39,024 nt of DNA from Gluconobacter sphaericus NBRC 12467 (GTDB lineage Bacteria > Pseudomonadota > Alphaproteobacteria > Acetobacterales > Acetobacteraceae), in assembly GCF_006539125.1 (NCBI RefSeq), contig NZ_BJMK01000019.1, positions 1 through 39,024 on the forward strand, written 5' to 3'. The translations under genes were made by a program, and so were the position numbers. Under the pieces are notes generated by a model. That model did no database searches. It saw only the letters and a program-made list of their open reading frames with translations, and had not been told where the DNA came from. Positions 9,387 to 14,585 of the stretch are shown here, piece after piece (positions within the stretch are counted from its first letter, which is position 1; each line of letters begins with the position of its first letter).

Positions 9387-12041
9387 ATGGGCGACCATCG
9401 CGATGACCTGGACGCCATCAACGGCGAGAACACCGTCTATTTGGCGGAGCTGCACACACGCTGGCAGCACGACCCGTCATCCGTGGACATGGCTTTCGCC
9501 TCCCTGTTTGAAACCCTTGGCGCCGACCGCCTGCCTCCGGAAATAGCGACGCAGACCGACGCCAGCGCGGAAAGCCTGAAATTCGCCTATCGCCTGCGCG
9601 GCCATGCCACCGCAAAGCTGGACCCACTCGGCCTGGCACCCGTTCCCGACATTGCCGAACTGAACCCGCCCGGAGCCGACCGGGACCTGATCGCCCGCCT
9701 GCGCCGCGCCTATTGCGGCACCACGGCCGCCGAGTTCATGCATCTTCAGGACCCCGCCCAGCGCCAGTGGTGGATCGACCGCCTGGAAAACCCGGCTCCC
9801 GCCCCATCGCTGGACCAGAAGCGCATTCTCCTCGCCTTGACCCGCGCCGAAGGCTTCGAACAATTCTGCCAAAAGCGCTTCATGGGCATGCGCCGCTTCG
9901 GCCTCGAAGGCGGTGAGAGCGTCATCGTCGCCCTGCGTACCCTGATTGATGCCGCCGCACAGGACGACGTGCGCTCTGTCTCGCTCGGCATGCCCCATCG
10001 CGGCCGTCTGAACGTGATGGCCAACATCCTGCGTAAGCCGTTTGCCGCCATTTTCAGCGAATTCGCAGGCACCGCCTTCAAGCCCGACACCATTCAGGGC
10101 TCGGGCGATGTCAAATACCATCTCGGCACCGCCACAACGCTCGAACATGCGGGCCACACTGTCCGCATTTCGCTCCTGCCCAACCCCTCTCATCTGGAAG
10201 CGGTGGACCCCGTCGTGCTCGGCCGTGTCCGCGCCGATCAGGACCGCGAAAAGGACCACGACCGTCAGCATCATCTGGGCATTCTCGTCCACGGCGACGC
10301 CGCCTTCGCCGGTCAGGGCGTCGTGTACGAAACCCTTAGCCTCTCGAAACTGGAAGGCTACCGGACGGGCGGTACGGTTCACGTCATCATCAACAACCAG
10401 ATCGGCTTCACCACCGTCCAGTCCGATGCCCATTCTGGCATCCACAACACCGACATCGCAAAATCCGTTCAAGCCCCGATCCTACACGTCAATGGCGACG
10501 ATCCCGAAGCCGTCTCCCGCTGTGCCTTTCTGGCGCATGAATGGCGCTGCACCTTCCAGTCCGACATCGTGCTGGATGTCGTCTGCTATCGCCGTCACGG
10601 CCATAACGAAGCCGATGAACCCGCCTTCACGCAACCCGCGATGGTCCACGCCATCCAGTCCCGCGCCACGACACGCAGTCTCTATGCTCAGCATCTGATC
10701 CACACTGGCGTTATGACGGAGGCCGAAGTCGAAGAGATGTGGACGCATTTCCAGCGCCGGCTGGAAGAGCAGTTCGAGAAATCCAAAACCTATCAGCCCA
10801 ACAGCACGGACTGGCTCGACGGCCCCGAAGATCCGACCCGCCTTCAGGACGAACAGGACCGCATCCAGCCCATGACCGGCGTACCGCTCCGGCGCCTTCA
10901 GGAAGTCGGAGACGCCATCGGTACGATCCCCGAAGGTCTGGCCGTTCACCCCCGTCTGGCCCGGCAGATCACCGCGCGCGGCAAAGCCGTGACCGATGGC
11001 GGTCCGATCGACTGGGCCACGGCCGAGGCCCTAGCCTTCGGCACCCTGTCGATGGATGGACATCCCGTGCGCCTCTCCGGGCAGGACAGCCGCCGCGGCA
11101 CGTTCAGTCAGCGTCATGCCGTGCTGTTCGATCAGGGCACAGGCCGCGAAGACACCCCCCTGACCCATATCGCGCCCCATCAGGCCCCACTGAACATCTG
11201 GAATTCACCGCTCTCGGAATACGCTGTCCTCGGCTTCGAATACGGCTATTCCCTCGGCGACCCAGAAGCGCTGGTCCTGTGGGAAGCGCAGTTCGGCGAT
11301 TTCGCGAATGGCGCACAGATCATTCTCGATCAGTTCATCGCTTCGGGCGAAACCAAATGGCTGCGAACATCCGGCCTGACCCTGCTTCTGCCCCACGGCT
11401 ATGAAGGTGGTGGCCCGGAACATTCTTCCGCCCGCCCCGAACGCATCCTTCAGCTCTGCGCAGAAAACAACATGCGCGTGTGCAACATCACCACGCCCGC
11501 CAACTACTTCCACGCCCTGCGCCGCCAGATCGCGCGACGCTGCCGCAAGCCGTTGGTCGTCTTCACGCCCAAATCACTGCTCCGCAACAAGGACGCAGTA
11601 TCCATGCTGGACGCGATAGGACCGCATACACGTTTCCAGCCCGTCCTGCCCGATCCGGCGAAAGAAGACGGCGCACGCCGGATCATCCTGTGCACCGGGA
11701 AGGTCTATTATGATCTCATCGCCGAACGGACGCGCCAGAGCCGCGACGATGTCGCCATCATCCGCATCGAACAGCTCTACCCGTTCCCGCACCATGCCTT
11801 GATGGAACAACTTGTCCGCCACCCGGATGCAGAACAGGTCCTATGGTGTCAGGAAGAGCCGCAAAATAACGGAGCCTGGATTTTCGTGGACCGTCGCATC
11901 GAACGCGCCTTGCGTGGCTGCAACCATCGTGCGCAGCGGCCGGACTATGCCGGCCGCGAAAGCACAGCTTCTCCCGCAACGGGGCTACCAGGCGTCCACG
12001 CCGCCCAGCAGGAAAAACTGGTTCAGGATGCCCTATCCTGA
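9387..12041 (+). CDS. sucA: 2-oxoglutarate dehydrogenase E1 component
   Basis: Thiamine-diphosphate decarboxylase subunit of the 2-oxoglutarate dehydrogenase complex. The N-terminal E2-binding helix (NTVYLAELHTRW) is present. The active-site GMPHRGRLNV lies near 201-210, the ThDP/Mg motif runs from GDA (303-305) to NNQ (336-338), and HNEADEPAFTQP follows. At 884 aa it is slightly shorter than E. coli SucA (933) but complete. The ATG has a good AGGAGA site. sucB and lpd, which usually follow, are not here: a convergent lipoprotein gene begins 22 bases on. Gluconobacter is known for an incomplete TCA cycle (no succinyl-CoA synthetase or succinate dehydrogenase), so the enzyme may mainly serve biosynthesis there. 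Confidence 0.95.
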   Translation: MGDHRDDLDAINGENTVYLAELHTRWQHDPSSVDMAFASLFETLGADRLPPEIATQTDASAESLKFAYRLRGHATAKLDPLGLAPVPDIAELNPPGADRDLIARLRRAYCGTTAAEFMHLQDPAQRQWWIDRLENPAPAPSLDQKRILLALTRAEGFEQFCQKRFMGMRRFGLEGGESVIVALRTLIDAAAQDDVRSVSLGMPHRGRLNVMANILRKPFAAIFSEFAGTAFKPDTIQGSGDVKYHLGTATTLEHAGHTVRISLLPNPSHLEAVDPVVLGRVRADQDREKDHDRQHHLGILVHGDAAFAGQGVVYETLSLSKLEGYRTGGTVHVIINNQIGFTTVQSDAHSGIHNTDIAKSVQAPILHVNGDDPEAVSRCAFLAHEWRCTFQSDIVLDVVCYRRHGHNEADEPAFTQPAMVHAIQSRATTRSLYAQHLIHTGVMTEAEVEEMWTHFQRRLEEQFEKSKTYQPNSTDWLDGPEDPTRLQDEQDRIQPMTGVPLRRLQEVGDAIGTIPEGLAVHPRLARQITARGKAVTDGGPIDWATAEALAFGTLSMDGHPVRLSGQDSRRGTFSQRHAVLFDQGTGREDTPLTHIAPHQAPLNIWNSPLSEYAVLGFEYGYSLGDPEALVLWEAQFGDFANGAQIILDQFIASGETKWLRTSGLTLLLPHGYEGGGPEHSSARPERILQLCAENNMRVCNITTPANYFHALRRQIARRCRKPLVVFTPKSLLRNKDAVSMLDAIGPHTRFQPVLPDPAKEDGARRIILCTGKVYYDLIAERTRQSRDDVAIIRIEQLYPFPHHALMEQLVRHPDAEQVLWCQEEPQNNGAWIFVDRRIERALRGCNHRAQRPDYAGRESTASPATGLPGVHAAQQEKLVQDALS

Positions 12042-12225: not shown

Positions 12226-12548
12226 CAACGTTTCCTCTTATCATCGTTTTCTCGCGTCACACTACGCCGCCAGACCGACACGCGCCACAAGCTGTCCTGC
12301 CAGAGACAGAATGGTATTTTTCAGAATTTATAGGAAATAGTGAACCAACTAGGAGTAGTTAAAACAATGATTTAAACTGTCTATATTTCTTTTTTTATCG
12401 AAAAATCAAACACTTAGAAGTAATTTGTCAGATTTACTTCTTCCTCAAAAAAGGTGCGTGTTAGTAAAAAAGTACGCGAAGTCAAACCAAATCGGAAAAG
12501 TGTCAAACCGGCCTAAAAGATGGCCGTTTTCTAGAATTTTTAAAGGAT
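12226..12548. other. AT-rich gap with no gene, downstream of tRNA-Lys
   Basis: From about 12310 to 12548 the sequence is much richer in A and T than the neighbours and holds no credible gene. A segment at 12340-12357 (GTGAACCAACTAGGAGTA) imperfectly resembles the tRNA-Lys 3' end at 12551-12568 (GTGAACCGGCTGGGACTC), with an exact 7-base start. Such a partial copy beside a tRNA 3' end could be an old attachment-site remnant, but may be chance. Confidence 0.35.
12506..12530 (-). terminator. Weak candidate terminator of tRNA-Lys
   Basis: CGGCC (12509-12513) pairs with GGCCG (12522-12526), extended by AAA/TTT after one mismatch. It lies about 20 bases beyond the tRNA 3' end in the direction of transcription; the U tract is short. 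Confidence 0.3.
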
Positions 12549-12836
12549 TGGTGAACCGGCTGGGACTCGAACCCAGGACCATTCGATTACATACCACTTC
12601 GGTTTTCACCGCCCCCGTTTAGGGTTCGTGGTCTGGACTTTATCTTCACCATAGGCCGGAGCCGTTAGGTGGACCCTGTCAAGTCTCTACACCTTCCATC
12701 TTACGATGGCTTGGCTCGGTATTGGCACGATCTAGAAGATCAGAGCGTTCACCGAGTTTAAGGTCTTTTCAACAGCCAGTTTCCCGACTGTGCTCCCATT
12801 GAAAGTCGAATGCTCTACCAACTGAGCTACCGGTTC
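12549..12836 (-). tRNA. tRNA-Lys(UUU), split by a group I intron
   Basis: The two halves form one cloverleaf. The 5' half (12836 to 12802) carries acceptor GAACCGG, D arm GCTC...GAGC, and anticodon stem TTCGA with C32 U33 U34 U35. The 3' half (12589 to 12549) carries U36 A37 A38, stem TCGAA, T arm CTGGG-TTCGAGT-CCCAG, acceptor CCGGTTC, discriminator A and encoded CCA. Joining them gives the loop CTTTTAA, the usual tRNA-Lys(UUU) loop, and the D, variable and T regions match E. coli tRNA-Lys well. The intron therefore falls between anticodon bases 35 and 36. Without splicing, no functional tRNA can form. A strong promoter lies upstream (12851-12879). Confidence 0.92.
12590..12801 (-). ncRNA. 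Group I intron (Azoarcus-like, subgroup IC3 type), 212 nt, no ORF
   Basis: Self-splicing-type intron inside tRNA-Lys. The 5' exon ends in U and the intron ends in G, the group I rule. Core stretches shared with the Azoarcus tRNA-Ile intron as I remember it are CCGAGCCAAGC, GAAGGTGTAGAGACT, CCACCTAA, CTATGGTGAAG and AGTCCAG, in the same order. P7 can be drawn as GACTT with AAGTC, where Azoarcus has GACTA with TAGTC, a compensated change. GNRA-type loops close CCATC-GTAA-GATGG and CGGT-GAAA-ACCG (P9 region), and ACCAC/GTGGT closes the P9 extension. A short P1 with a terminal U-G pair (exon CUUU with GGAG) is possible. It is near the minimum size for the class and encodes no endonuclease. Confidence 0.92.
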
Positions 12837-12850
12837 CAACCAATGTCGCC

Positions 12851-12879
12851 CCTATACACAGGGTCAGACTCCGGTGCAA
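12851..12879 (-). promoter_or_regulatory. Promoter of tRNA-Lys
   Basis: On the minus strand TTGCAC (12874-12879) and TATAGG (12851-12856) are separated by exactly 17 bases, and the -10 box ends 14 bases before the tRNA. The gap beyond it (12880-12939) contains a small ATAGGC-TTTTT-GCCTAT hairpin near 12901-12917. Confidence 0.6.
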
Positions 12880-12939
12880 CCCCTCGTTTCGTTCACATCA
12901 TAGGCTTTTTGCCTATAAAAATGGCCGGAGTCGAAAGGT

Positions 12940-13342
12940 TTGGACCATTCCCTACTGTTTTATTTACCGGAAGAAGAAAGTCAGGCATCTGTCATGGCGT
13001 ATTGCGACACGCCGCCAGTCCTTGAGCCTTCCAAACCTGATCTCGATGCAGTTGCAGCGTTTGTATTTCCGCCTGTCGTATTTGAGAGGTTTTCCGCGAG
13101 ATTTTCGTTCTGGAATGCAGAGTTTGATACTCTTCTTTTCCAGGACGTCTCTGAATCAGTCGGCCTGACCAGAAACTATGTCCACTATCTCAGAAACACC
13201 TATCTGCTGACCGACACGACGGCTCGCTCAACGACAACTCACGCTTAACGCGAACTATATCCAGGGTCCGTTCACCCTTCAGTGGCAGACCCGCTGGTTC
13301 GTCCCTCTACCCGGTTCAGGTTCCTGCTTTTCCGATAAATAA
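12940..13342 (+). pseudogene. Possible decayed outer-membrane receptor (TonB-dependent) remnant
   Basis: An open frame from a TTG at 12940 (or ATG at 12994) runs to 13248 and gives 102 residues without a recognised family or signal peptide. Its second half (FSARFSFWNAEFDTLLFQ) and a frame-shifted continuation at 13211-13342 (LTLNANYIQGPFTLQWQTRW) alternate residues like beta strands and resemble the last barrel strands of TonB-dependent receptors. The reading would need one frameshift near 13211-13248 and lacks the plug and terminal aromatic strand. The likeness is my own pattern reading. The alternative is a short orphan gene at 12994-13248. Confidence 0.3.
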
Positions 13343-13349
13343 AAAAAGA

Positions 13350-14585
13350 TCAACCCGTCTCTATGGGCATATGCTTGACCTTGATGTTGTAGCCTTTAAG
13401 CATTCCATACCAGTACAGACGGGGGAAGACTTCCGTCTTTAGGCACCAGGCAAAGCGGCTGGGTTTACGCTGGTCATAGGAGAAGCTAGGCGCAACCTTG
13501 CCGCCATACAGGAACTCGGCCAGCACGACCTTACCGTAGGATACGGTTAGCGGGCAGGCGCCGTAACCGTCATAGCTGCCCATCTGCGGGCGGCCATCAA
13601 GCGAGGCCAGCAAGTTTTCTACGACAACCGGAGCTTGTTCGCGGACAGCAGCGGCTGTCTTGGCGTTGCTGGTACCCAGAACATCCCCGGCGCCGAAGAT
13701 GTTGTCATAGGTCTTGTGACGCAGGACGGTCGGATCGACATCCAGCCAGCCAGCTTCATTGGCAAGCGGGCTTTTCTTGACGAAATCTGGAGCGCTCTGC
13801 GGCGGAACGACATGCAGCATGTCGAACTGGCGTACCACGATCTGATCCGTTCCGACGATCTGGAACGTGGCTTCGCGCTTCTCACCGTCCACCTTGATCA
13901 GGTTTTCCTTCAGATGAAGGTTCACGCCGTAATAGTCGATCTCGCGCTGGAGCGAAGGGACGAAATACGGCACACCGAACAGGGCGTTTCCGGCCAGCGA
14001 GAAATTGACTTCCGTACGATGCAGCGAGCCTTCTCGGCGCCAGTGATCACAGGCCAGATAGACAATCTTCTGTGGCGCGCCGGCGCATTTGATGGGCATG
14101 GGTGGCTGTGTGAACAGAGCCTTGCCGCCATCGAGATGCCGGATGCATTCCCAAGTATAGGCGGCCGTCTCACGCGAATAATTCGACGTCACACCATTGC
14201 GGCCCAGTGTCTCAGGCAGGCCTTCGATCTTGTCCCAGTCAAGCTGAAGGCCGGGGCAGACAATCAGACGGCGATACTCAACAGCACGGCCGCTTTTCAG
14301 TGTCACGCTGTTGGCTTCAGGCTGGAAGCTCTCAACGGTATCGCGCAGCCAAGTGACATTGCGCGGGATCAGCCCGCCTTCCTGCCGCAACGTTTCGGGC
14401 AGCGTCATCACTCCCGCACCGACAAGGGTCCAGCCCGGCTGGTAAGCATGCGTCGTGGACGGTTCGATAATGGCGATCGACAGGTTGGCGCGTTCACGCC
14501 TGAGCTGTGCTGCAATGGTGATGCCGGCGGCACCACCGCCGACGATGACGACTGAGAAACGGTCCTGTTGGGTCGGGTCTGCCAT
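13350..14585 (-). CDS. sqr: Sulfide:quinone oxidoreductase, type II (SQOR-like) flavoprotein
   Basis: FAD-dependent membrane-associated enzyme that oxidises sulfide and passes electrons to ubiquinone. The FAD-binding VVIVGGGAAG is at 12-21, a second dinucleotide signature is NIFGAGDV (295-302), and the protein is 411 aa. The two redox cysteines of the mitochondrial/type II enzymes are present: Cys167 in PIKCAGAPQK and Cys344 in GYGACPLT. The hydrophobic, aromatic C-terminus (residues ~380-405) fits membrane docking. GGAG precedes the ATG. It appears to be a single gene; no persulfide dioxygenase or rhodanese partner is next to it. A T-run follows its stop. Confidence 0.87.
   Translation of the reverse strand: MADPTQQDRFSVVIVGGGAAGITIAAQLRRERANLSIAIIEPSTTHAYQPGWTLVGAGVMTLPETLRQEGGLIPRNVTWLRDTVESFQPEANSVTLKSGRAVEYRRLIVCPGLQLDWDKIEGLPETLGRNGVTSNYSRETAAYTWECIRHLDGGKALFTQPPMPIKCAGAPQKIVYLACDHWRREGSLHRTEVNFSLAGNALFGVPYFVPSLQREIDYYGVNLHLKENLIKVDGEKREATFQIVGTDQIVVRQFDMLHVVPPQSAPDFVKKSPLANEAGWLDVDPTVLRHKTYDNIFGAGDVLGTSNAKTAAAVREQAPVVVENLLASLDGRPQMGSYDGYGACPLTVSYGKVVLAEFLYGGKVAPSFSYDQRKPSRFAWCLKTEVFPRLYWYGMLKGYNIKVKHMPIETG

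Follow-up and report, generated by a model that had tools for sequence, protein, structure and literature searches.

The 39,024-nt stretch of the Gluconobacter sphaericus NBRC 12467 genome analyzed here (contig NZ_BJMK01000019.1; hereafter, the window) contains a tRNA-Lys(UUU) gene that is broken inside its anticodon, which raises the question of what interrupts it and whether the gene can still supply the tRNA that reads AAA codons. The gene occupies 12836..12549 on the minus strand and consists of a 35-nt 5′ exon, a 212-nt insert, and a 41-nt 3′ exon, giving a precursor of 288 nt (Table 1). A first-pass annotation of the DNA had described two halves that join to a perfect tRNA-Lys, a cut between anticodon bases 35 and 36, and an insert following group I rules (a 5′ exon with terminal U, an intron with terminal G), and all three descriptions held. 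Once joined, the exons form a 76-nt cloverleaf tRNA-Lys(ttt) with every stem paired and the anticodon UUU, and they match the uninterrupted tRNA-Lys(UUU) of 14 congeners letter for letter (76/76 bases; 15 loci, one congener being represented twice). CUUU closes the 5′ exon, G closes the intron, and UAA opens the 3′ exon, which fixes the insertion point between bases 35 and 36. The insert has room for no protein gene of more than 70 codons. At a probability of roughly 0.9, the reading that we favor from these and the following comparisons is that of a functional tRNA-Lys(UUU) gene carrying a putatively self-splicing group IC3 intron at 35/36, recently acquired from another acetic acid bacterium.

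Table 1. Features at and around the split tRNA-Lys(UUU) gene (window coordinates)
Feature	Positions	Strand	Remarks
sucA (2-oxoglutarate dehydrogenase E1)	9387..12041	+	No more than about 1.1 kb from tRNA-Lys in 11 of 25 congeners
3′ exon of tRNA-Lys(UUU), bases 36-76, CCA encoded	12549..12589	-	UAAUCGAA...CCA; native sequence
Group I intron, IC3 (tRNA) type, 212 nt	12590..12801	-	Starts CAAUGGGAGC, ends GGUAUG; from RF00028, alignment and pair counts, tree
Internal guide GGAG, can pair with exon CUUU (P1)	12793..12796	-	U-G pair at 5′ splice site
5′ exon of tRNA-Lys(UUU), bases 1-35	12802..12836	-	GAACCGG...GACUUU, ends CUUU; same in intact genes of 14 congeners
Upstream region, non-native, presumed promoter	12837..12969	-	Flank likeness judged by eye
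IS4/IS5-type transposase gene fragment	12970..13164		Repeat dispersed in the family; edge of non-native segment
Sulfide:quinone-reductase-like oxidoreductase	13350..14585	-	Lacks a neighboring tRNA at all 10 loci compared in congeners

The Rfam group I model (RF00028), proposed earlier as a check on the minus strand, recognized the insert with a significant E value (4.3e-7 when 501 bases were scanned, 6.1e-7 genome-wide), although its 34.2 bits lie under the Rfam gathering score of 50, a threshold that serves for searching and does not define group I introns; a default Rfam scan therefore misses it. The Arg(CCU) intron of the same genome is likewise under the cut-off, at 48.7 bits. At an E value of 0.01, RF00028 detected the intron at 12 of the 26 split tRNA-Lys loci of bacterial genomes described below (1 above the cut-off) and missed even close Gluconacetobacter relatives of the window intron. 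RF00028 thus performs poorly on this branch of introns, and it is the alignment that places the insert in group I. Thirty-nine introns, chosen from 57 extracted and comprising the window intron with Lys, Thr, Arg, and Leu introns of bacteria and phages, were aligned, and their pairing was scored against a group I structure that had been drawn on the sequence of the window intron (55 pairs, 2068 cells). Paired cells made up 90.4%, compared with a shuffled mean of 71.3% (0 of 500 shuffles as high), and sliding the partners by 1-3 columns left 27.5-43.1% paired, a control that flatters the structure because it was drawn on one member. Double-sided changes occurred at 43 of the 55 pairs (shuffled mean, 31.2) and covariation was 0.486 (shuffled mean, 0.157); the double changes, seen in up to 26 of 39 sequences in P3 and in 24 of 39 at the last pair of P7, are unaffected by that bias. 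At the last pair of P7, 15 introns have U-A, 12 have A-U, and 12 have G-C, and the compensated P7 change reported in the first-pass annotation is real within this intron family. P3, P6, P7, the base of P8, and the P9 hairpin are paired in 39/39 introns and P4 in 94.9%; the weakest pairing was found at one P6a-closing pair (50%), in the loosely aligned P2 (68.6%), and in P5 (75.6-83.4%). RNAalifold, which draws no pseudoknot, recovered P3, P4, P6, P8, and P9 from the same alignment. The window precursor folds more stably than its shuffles (z -2.72), and the minimum-energy fold of the single sequence is only partly native.

The window intron has the catalytic core P3, P4, P6, P7, and P8 with the P3/P7 pseudoknot, a U at the end of the 5′ exon that pairs with a G of the internal guide, and an intron-terminal G. 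By eye, the alignment places GAAA loops on its P2 and P9 and a short P5; GNRA loops on P2 and P9 are a mark of IC3 introns. Absence of the P5(a-d) domain is given as a further IC3 character in a passage of PMC11835236. An Rfam scan of 12450-12950 at E values up to 1 returned RF00028 and no group II or other intron family, and an archaeal-type bulge-helix-bulge intron is unlikely here because of the group I core. At the level of sequence comparison, the insert is confirmed as a small group I intron of the tRNA (IC3) type, its group I membership following from the alignment, and the proposal of a tRNA-Lys(UUU) gene split by a minimal group I intron agrees with the comparison of relatives.

Splice sites were tabulated for 35 introns (the window, 26 genomic, and 8 viral). 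Eighteen lie at 35/36 (the window, 16 genomic, and 1 viral) and 17 at 34/35 (10 genomic and 7 viral). A junction with a preceding U, a final G, and a restored 7-base loop is possible in 35/35 introns; the U and G are partly built into this count, since the search pattern demanded CUU in the 5′ exon and the script sought a G, but the existence of the junction is not. The guide table covers 34 introns, one (L118) being left out for want of a 5′ exon. At 35/36, the guide opposite CUUU (17/17) is GGAG in 14 introns and GAAG in 3. At 34/35 (n = 17), 8 introns have 4-6 pairs (GAGU or longer) and 9 have GAG opposite CUU only; many carry an extra G ahead of GAG, making a guide compatible with both registers. 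The two branches differ in exon and site, and in part only in guide, and such natural pairs of 34/35 and 35/36 introns in one tRNA offer a means of testing how the splice site is set by guide and exon. In the favored reading, the split precursor would be transcribed and the intron would fold into a P3-P8/P4-P6/P7 ribozyme; guanosine would then attack on the 3′ side of U35, which the guide GGAG keeps in place by pairing with CUUU, and the freed U35 would attack after the intron-terminal G, joining the exons into a standard tRNA-Lys. If the gene is spliced as predicted, AAA decoding in G. sphaericus depends on a ribozyme.

Whether the organism has another source of this tRNA was addressed in its assembly, where 41 tRNA matches include Lys(CUU) and no Lys(UUU). 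A separate intact tRNA-Lys(UUU) gene, the search for which had been suggested along with the initial description, was found in none of the 97 contigs with the Rfam tRNA model, ARAGORN, a sequence pattern, or BLAST, in an assembly that lacks some tRNA genes. The pattern for an uninterrupted anticodon arm, allowing up to 2 mismatches, matched Lys(CUU), Asn, and three other places in the genome. BLAST gave five matches in this genome; beyond the four listed, the fifth is weaker than E 2e-4 as against about 1e-14 for intact genes. Neither Ile(GAU) nor Ala(UGC) is on the tRNA list; the assembly is therefore missing part of the tRNA set, and a Lys(UUU) gene may be among the missing ones. AAA accounts for 70 of the 143 lysine codons in 14 window ORFs, and Lys(CUU) does not read AAA. 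The split gene thus appears to be the sole AAA-reading tRNA found in the assembly; it is predicted to be spliced and is presumably essential.

The closest relatives found for the intron lie outside the genus. BLAST of the window against the 26 genomic loci showed two from Gluconacetobacter to be 90.6 and 91.0% identical to it across 299 bases, and seven from Acetobacter and Brytella to be 83-87% identical; there were no other matches, and hence none to flanking genes. The 91% identity to Gluconacetobacter spans the whole gene plus 9 nt upstream, and the intron itself is 93% identical to that of Gluconacetobacter dulcium (L126). An IQ-TREE phylogeny of 55 introns (57 less 2 duplicates) grouped the window intron with eight other Acetobacteraceae Lys35/36 introns (9 in total; 100/99) and set it beside Gluconacetobacter (98/76). 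The genome's own Arg(CCU) intron fell in a separate clade holding 14 of the 15 Arg introns (96/96). In all 25 congeners, the tRNA-Lys halves abut by BLAST and the gene is uninterrupted. The window intron was probably acquired laterally, given its kinship to the Gluconacetobacter intron, its absence from 25/25 congener Lys genes, and its not being a copy of the resident Arg(CCU) intron.

The surroundings of the gene are a mosaic. The sucA side and the 3′ exon are native (e.g., 84.7% identity over 12360-12589 to one congener, G014), and the DNA from about 13160 onward is homologous to the congeners' oxidoreductase locus; given the absence of a tRNA next to the oxidoreductase at the 10 loci compared in congeners, that gene marks a rearranged junction. 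Between these parts, 12590-13160 holds the intron, the 5′ exon, a foreign-like upstream region, and the transposase fragment. By eye, the last ~50 bases of the upstream region resemble the DNA that flanks Lys-intron genes in Acetobacter and Gluconacetobacter, including CATTGGT adjoining the tRNA, and are unlike the flanks of intact congener tRNA-Lys genes. A consensus scan for sigma-70 promoters gave no site in the region upstream of the tRNA, and a candidate picked out by eye (TTGCAC-17-TATAGG) was dropped on that result. Another contig of the same assembly (C12:48010-48051) retains the native 5′ flank with bases 1-39 of an uninterrupted tRNA-Lys; this fragment leads into a disrupted IS5-family sequence, beyond which comes a transporter locus. 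Because it ends at base 39 in an IS5 remnant, it was rejected as a second functional copy. In the five congeners with both genes on one contig, about 90-130 kb separate the oxidoreductase from the transporter. We read these features as the import of an intron-bearing gene start together with, or followed by, an IS-associated rearrangement. The intron would have come recently from another acetic acid bacterium, bringing upstream DNA along, and the imported copy would have replaced the uninterrupted gene during the rearrangement; this route and order we infer from the flanks, and the 5′ exon of the window, being identical to the native one, marks no exact crossover point. An integrative element using the tRNA as its att site was also considered and set aside as less likely, as 0 of 17 window ORFs scanned is an integrase; several ORFs on that side of the tRNA are chromosomal genes, flagellar ones among them. 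The locus may record a recent gain in which the replaced gene is still visible as a fragment.

A functional gene is not the only way to read such a locus. Placement at a rearranged, IS-marked junction, the lack of a consensus promoter, and an assembly in 97 contigs from which some tRNA genes are missing would all suit a decaying copy, whose intron no longer splices and whose task has passed to a tRNA-Lys(UUU) absent from the assembly. Against this, the exons are unchanged and the intron retains all 42 columns that are invariant across the 39 aligned introns. Moreover, the uninterrupted gene that every congener keeps survives here as the 39-nt fragment, and we regard decay as improbable.

The recent arrival of a working intron from another acetic acid bacterium has itself to be set against two other histories. 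The intron could have arisen inside the genome by transposition (reverse splicing) of the Arg(CCU) intron, which is present in G. sphaericus and 25/25 congeners (26 genomes) and is 75% alike to the Lys intron over the matched part; the separate clades of the two introns led to the rejection of a copying event, and the identity to Gluconacetobacter across the whole gene and 9 nt upstream leaves this origin very improbable. Somewhat less so, though still unlikely, is an older intron in the family followed by losses. Acetobacter, Gluconacetobacter, and Brytella species do carry an intron at the same site, but only 8 of 395 genomes in the order survey and 1 of 26 in the genus match (by an exact pattern, which undercounts), and the native 3′ side beside an upstream side unlike that of congeners weighs against it.

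The split tRNA-Lys pattern was found at 26 loci in contigs representing one genome per species: 9 in Acetobacteraceae, 6 in sphingomonads, 6 in Nesterenkonia (two in one species), and 5 in others. By alignment or tree, 25 of the 26 are kin of the window intron. The remaining locus, in the metagenome-assembled bacterium RI_361 (L127), has a 223-nt insert at 34/35 of tRNA-Lys(UUU); this insert is missing some of the core motif seen in the others, matches no Rfam intron model, and forms the longest branch in the tree, being too divergent for its kinship to be decided. The pattern requires exact exon bases and a gap of 200-230 and therefore undercounts; a similar pattern matched 8 of 395 genomes in the order and 5 of 385 in the class, the window being counted in both, and a reversed-pattern control gave 0 among the matches listed in these two surveys, which, with the kinship of 25 of the 26 loci, puts the pattern above chance. 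The Lys(UUU) host had been called unusual in the first-pass annotation, which stands in that it is little described, but it is not unique and recurs in other alphaproteobacteria, Nesterenkonia, and phages.

Viral contigs yielded 8 split loci, 5 in Lys(UUU) genes (two near-identical) and 3 in Thr(UGU) genes. RF00028 reached or passed its cut-off at the split tRNA in 7/7 tested (L139 lay outside the test), and each contig carries 2-23 further tRNA genes. Six of 10 ORFs from 7 contigs matched a PHROG family, none of them from L140 or L142; a phage origin of these contigs is likely, though not proven contig by contig. In Gordonia phage Daredevil (NC_048021.1, 1340-1651), an unannotated tRNA-Lys(UUU)-like gene about 0.6 kb from an integrase gene has a 238-nt intron at 34/35 that groups with Nesterenkonia introns in the tree (100/98); RF00028 did not reach E 0.01 there, and the T-loop of the gene looks atypical. 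The core pattern was present at no fewer than 120 loci in viral contigs, 80 of which were taken. A split-tRNA finder, right on 7 of 8 known loci and wrong on Daredevil, returned a good model (score ≥20) for 34 of them, a poor one for 4, and none for 42. With near-identical contigs counted separately, the hosts were Leu(UAA) in 21 cases (5 doubtful, without the long variable arm expected of tRNA-Leu), Arg(UCU) in 3 (near-identical), Arg(CCU), Lys(UUU), and CAU in 2 each, and Gln(UUG), Glu(UUC), Lys(CUU), and Asn(GUU) in one each.

These collections held further intron-like sequences. Group I introns were seen in tRNA genes of IMG/VR contigs L139, L140, L144, L250, L257, L292, L299, and others, with hosts read as Thr(UGU), Arg(UCU), Gln(UUG), Glu(UUC), Asn(GUU), and Leu(UAA). 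Contig L146 has a second group I intron at 12747-12981 (56.1 bits), and permuted tmRNA matches above the cut-off (82.7 bits) lie in L143 (160-391) and L146 (1997-2228). In the uncultured phage L210 (LR756511.1), an apparent tRNA-Leu 3′ half follows the intron core and an HNH-like frame precedes it (by eye), which suggests a homing endonuclease inside a tRNA intron. A tRNA-Thr(UGU)-like gene of the Tritonibacter mobilis megaplasmid NZ_CP015231.1 (L213) has an intron at 36/37 by its junction reading. In the plasmid collection, 1266 records include a segment with 60-80% similarity to a portion of the query, one example being NC_004464.2 61936-62068 (L214), near a resistance gene. In a pelagiphage and a marine phage (L212, L215), a short intron-core match lies between two capsid-annotated features, as for an intron in a capsid gene.

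Default ARAGORN and the Rfam tRNA model did not report the split tRNA-Lys of the window, and ARAGORN with introns allowed labeled it tRNA-Tyr, which bears out the warning that standard tRNA finders may miss the gene; default tRNA annotation can thus leave out an apparently essential gene. ARAGORN calls of tRNA-Ser(UGA), -His, and -SeC as further intron hosts were rejected, as junctions placed by the U/G rule give Leu, Arg, and Lys.

A broader account can be put forward only tentatively, and we consider it less probable than its negation: tiny IC3 introns may roam among U34 tRNAs by means of a guide GAG that reads C32-U33-U34, the beginning of the anticodon loop common to these tRNAs, and not any single tRNA, with tRNA-rich phages as reservoir and carrier, and an imported split copy may here have become the only gene of an essential tRNA. 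Its U34 hosts at 34/35 would be Leu UAA, Lys UUU, Thr UGU, Arg UCU, Gln UUG, and Glu UUC, and the 35/36 Lys branch would read the loop one base further, as CUUU. Introns in Arg(CCU), Lys(CUU), Asn(GUU), and CAU tRNAs fall outside the U34 rule and need another account. Phage tRNA genes are indicated as a home for such introns.

The best-known bacterial tRNA hosts of group I introns are Leu(UAA), Ile(CAU), Arg(CCU), and fMet. The window intron resembles the introns of these hosts in its small IC3 type, its place in the anticodon loop, the preceding U, the last G, and the core, and differs in host and in site, the Leu and Arg introns compared lying at 34/35 and 36/37, respectively. Comparison gives good support to a familiar type of ribozyme intron, predicted to splice, in a host tRNA and at a position that are new for it, which would add one tRNA and one insertion point to a short list. 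The full texts searched, a coverage outside which most subscription journals and preprints lie, contained no description of bacterial Lys(UUU) group I introns, and the term Lys does not occur in the main text of PMC11835236. Passages of Hausner et al. 2014 (PMC3984707) place all phage introns observed up to then in protein-coding genes. Passages of PMC5733544 claim that cyanobacterial tRNA-Arg, -Gly, and -Lys contain "group I introns" with lengths of 22-49 nt; the Lys host is shared with the window, but these inserts, judged too short at 49 nt for a group I core, are a different thing. A table footnote in PMC4596401 records a group I-split tRNA-Arg in acetic acid bacteria. That intron, also present in the G. 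sphaericus genome (L001), shares bacterial family and intron type with the window intron and differs from it in tRNA, site, and clade. The nearest counterparts are the Lys(UUU) introns of Gluconacetobacter, Acetobacter, and Brytella, which have the same host, 35/36 site, and guide at 83-91% DNA identity, the two Gluconacetobacter tRNA bodies differing from that of the window, by eye, by 2 changes in the 5′ half and by 3 or 5 in the 3′ half.
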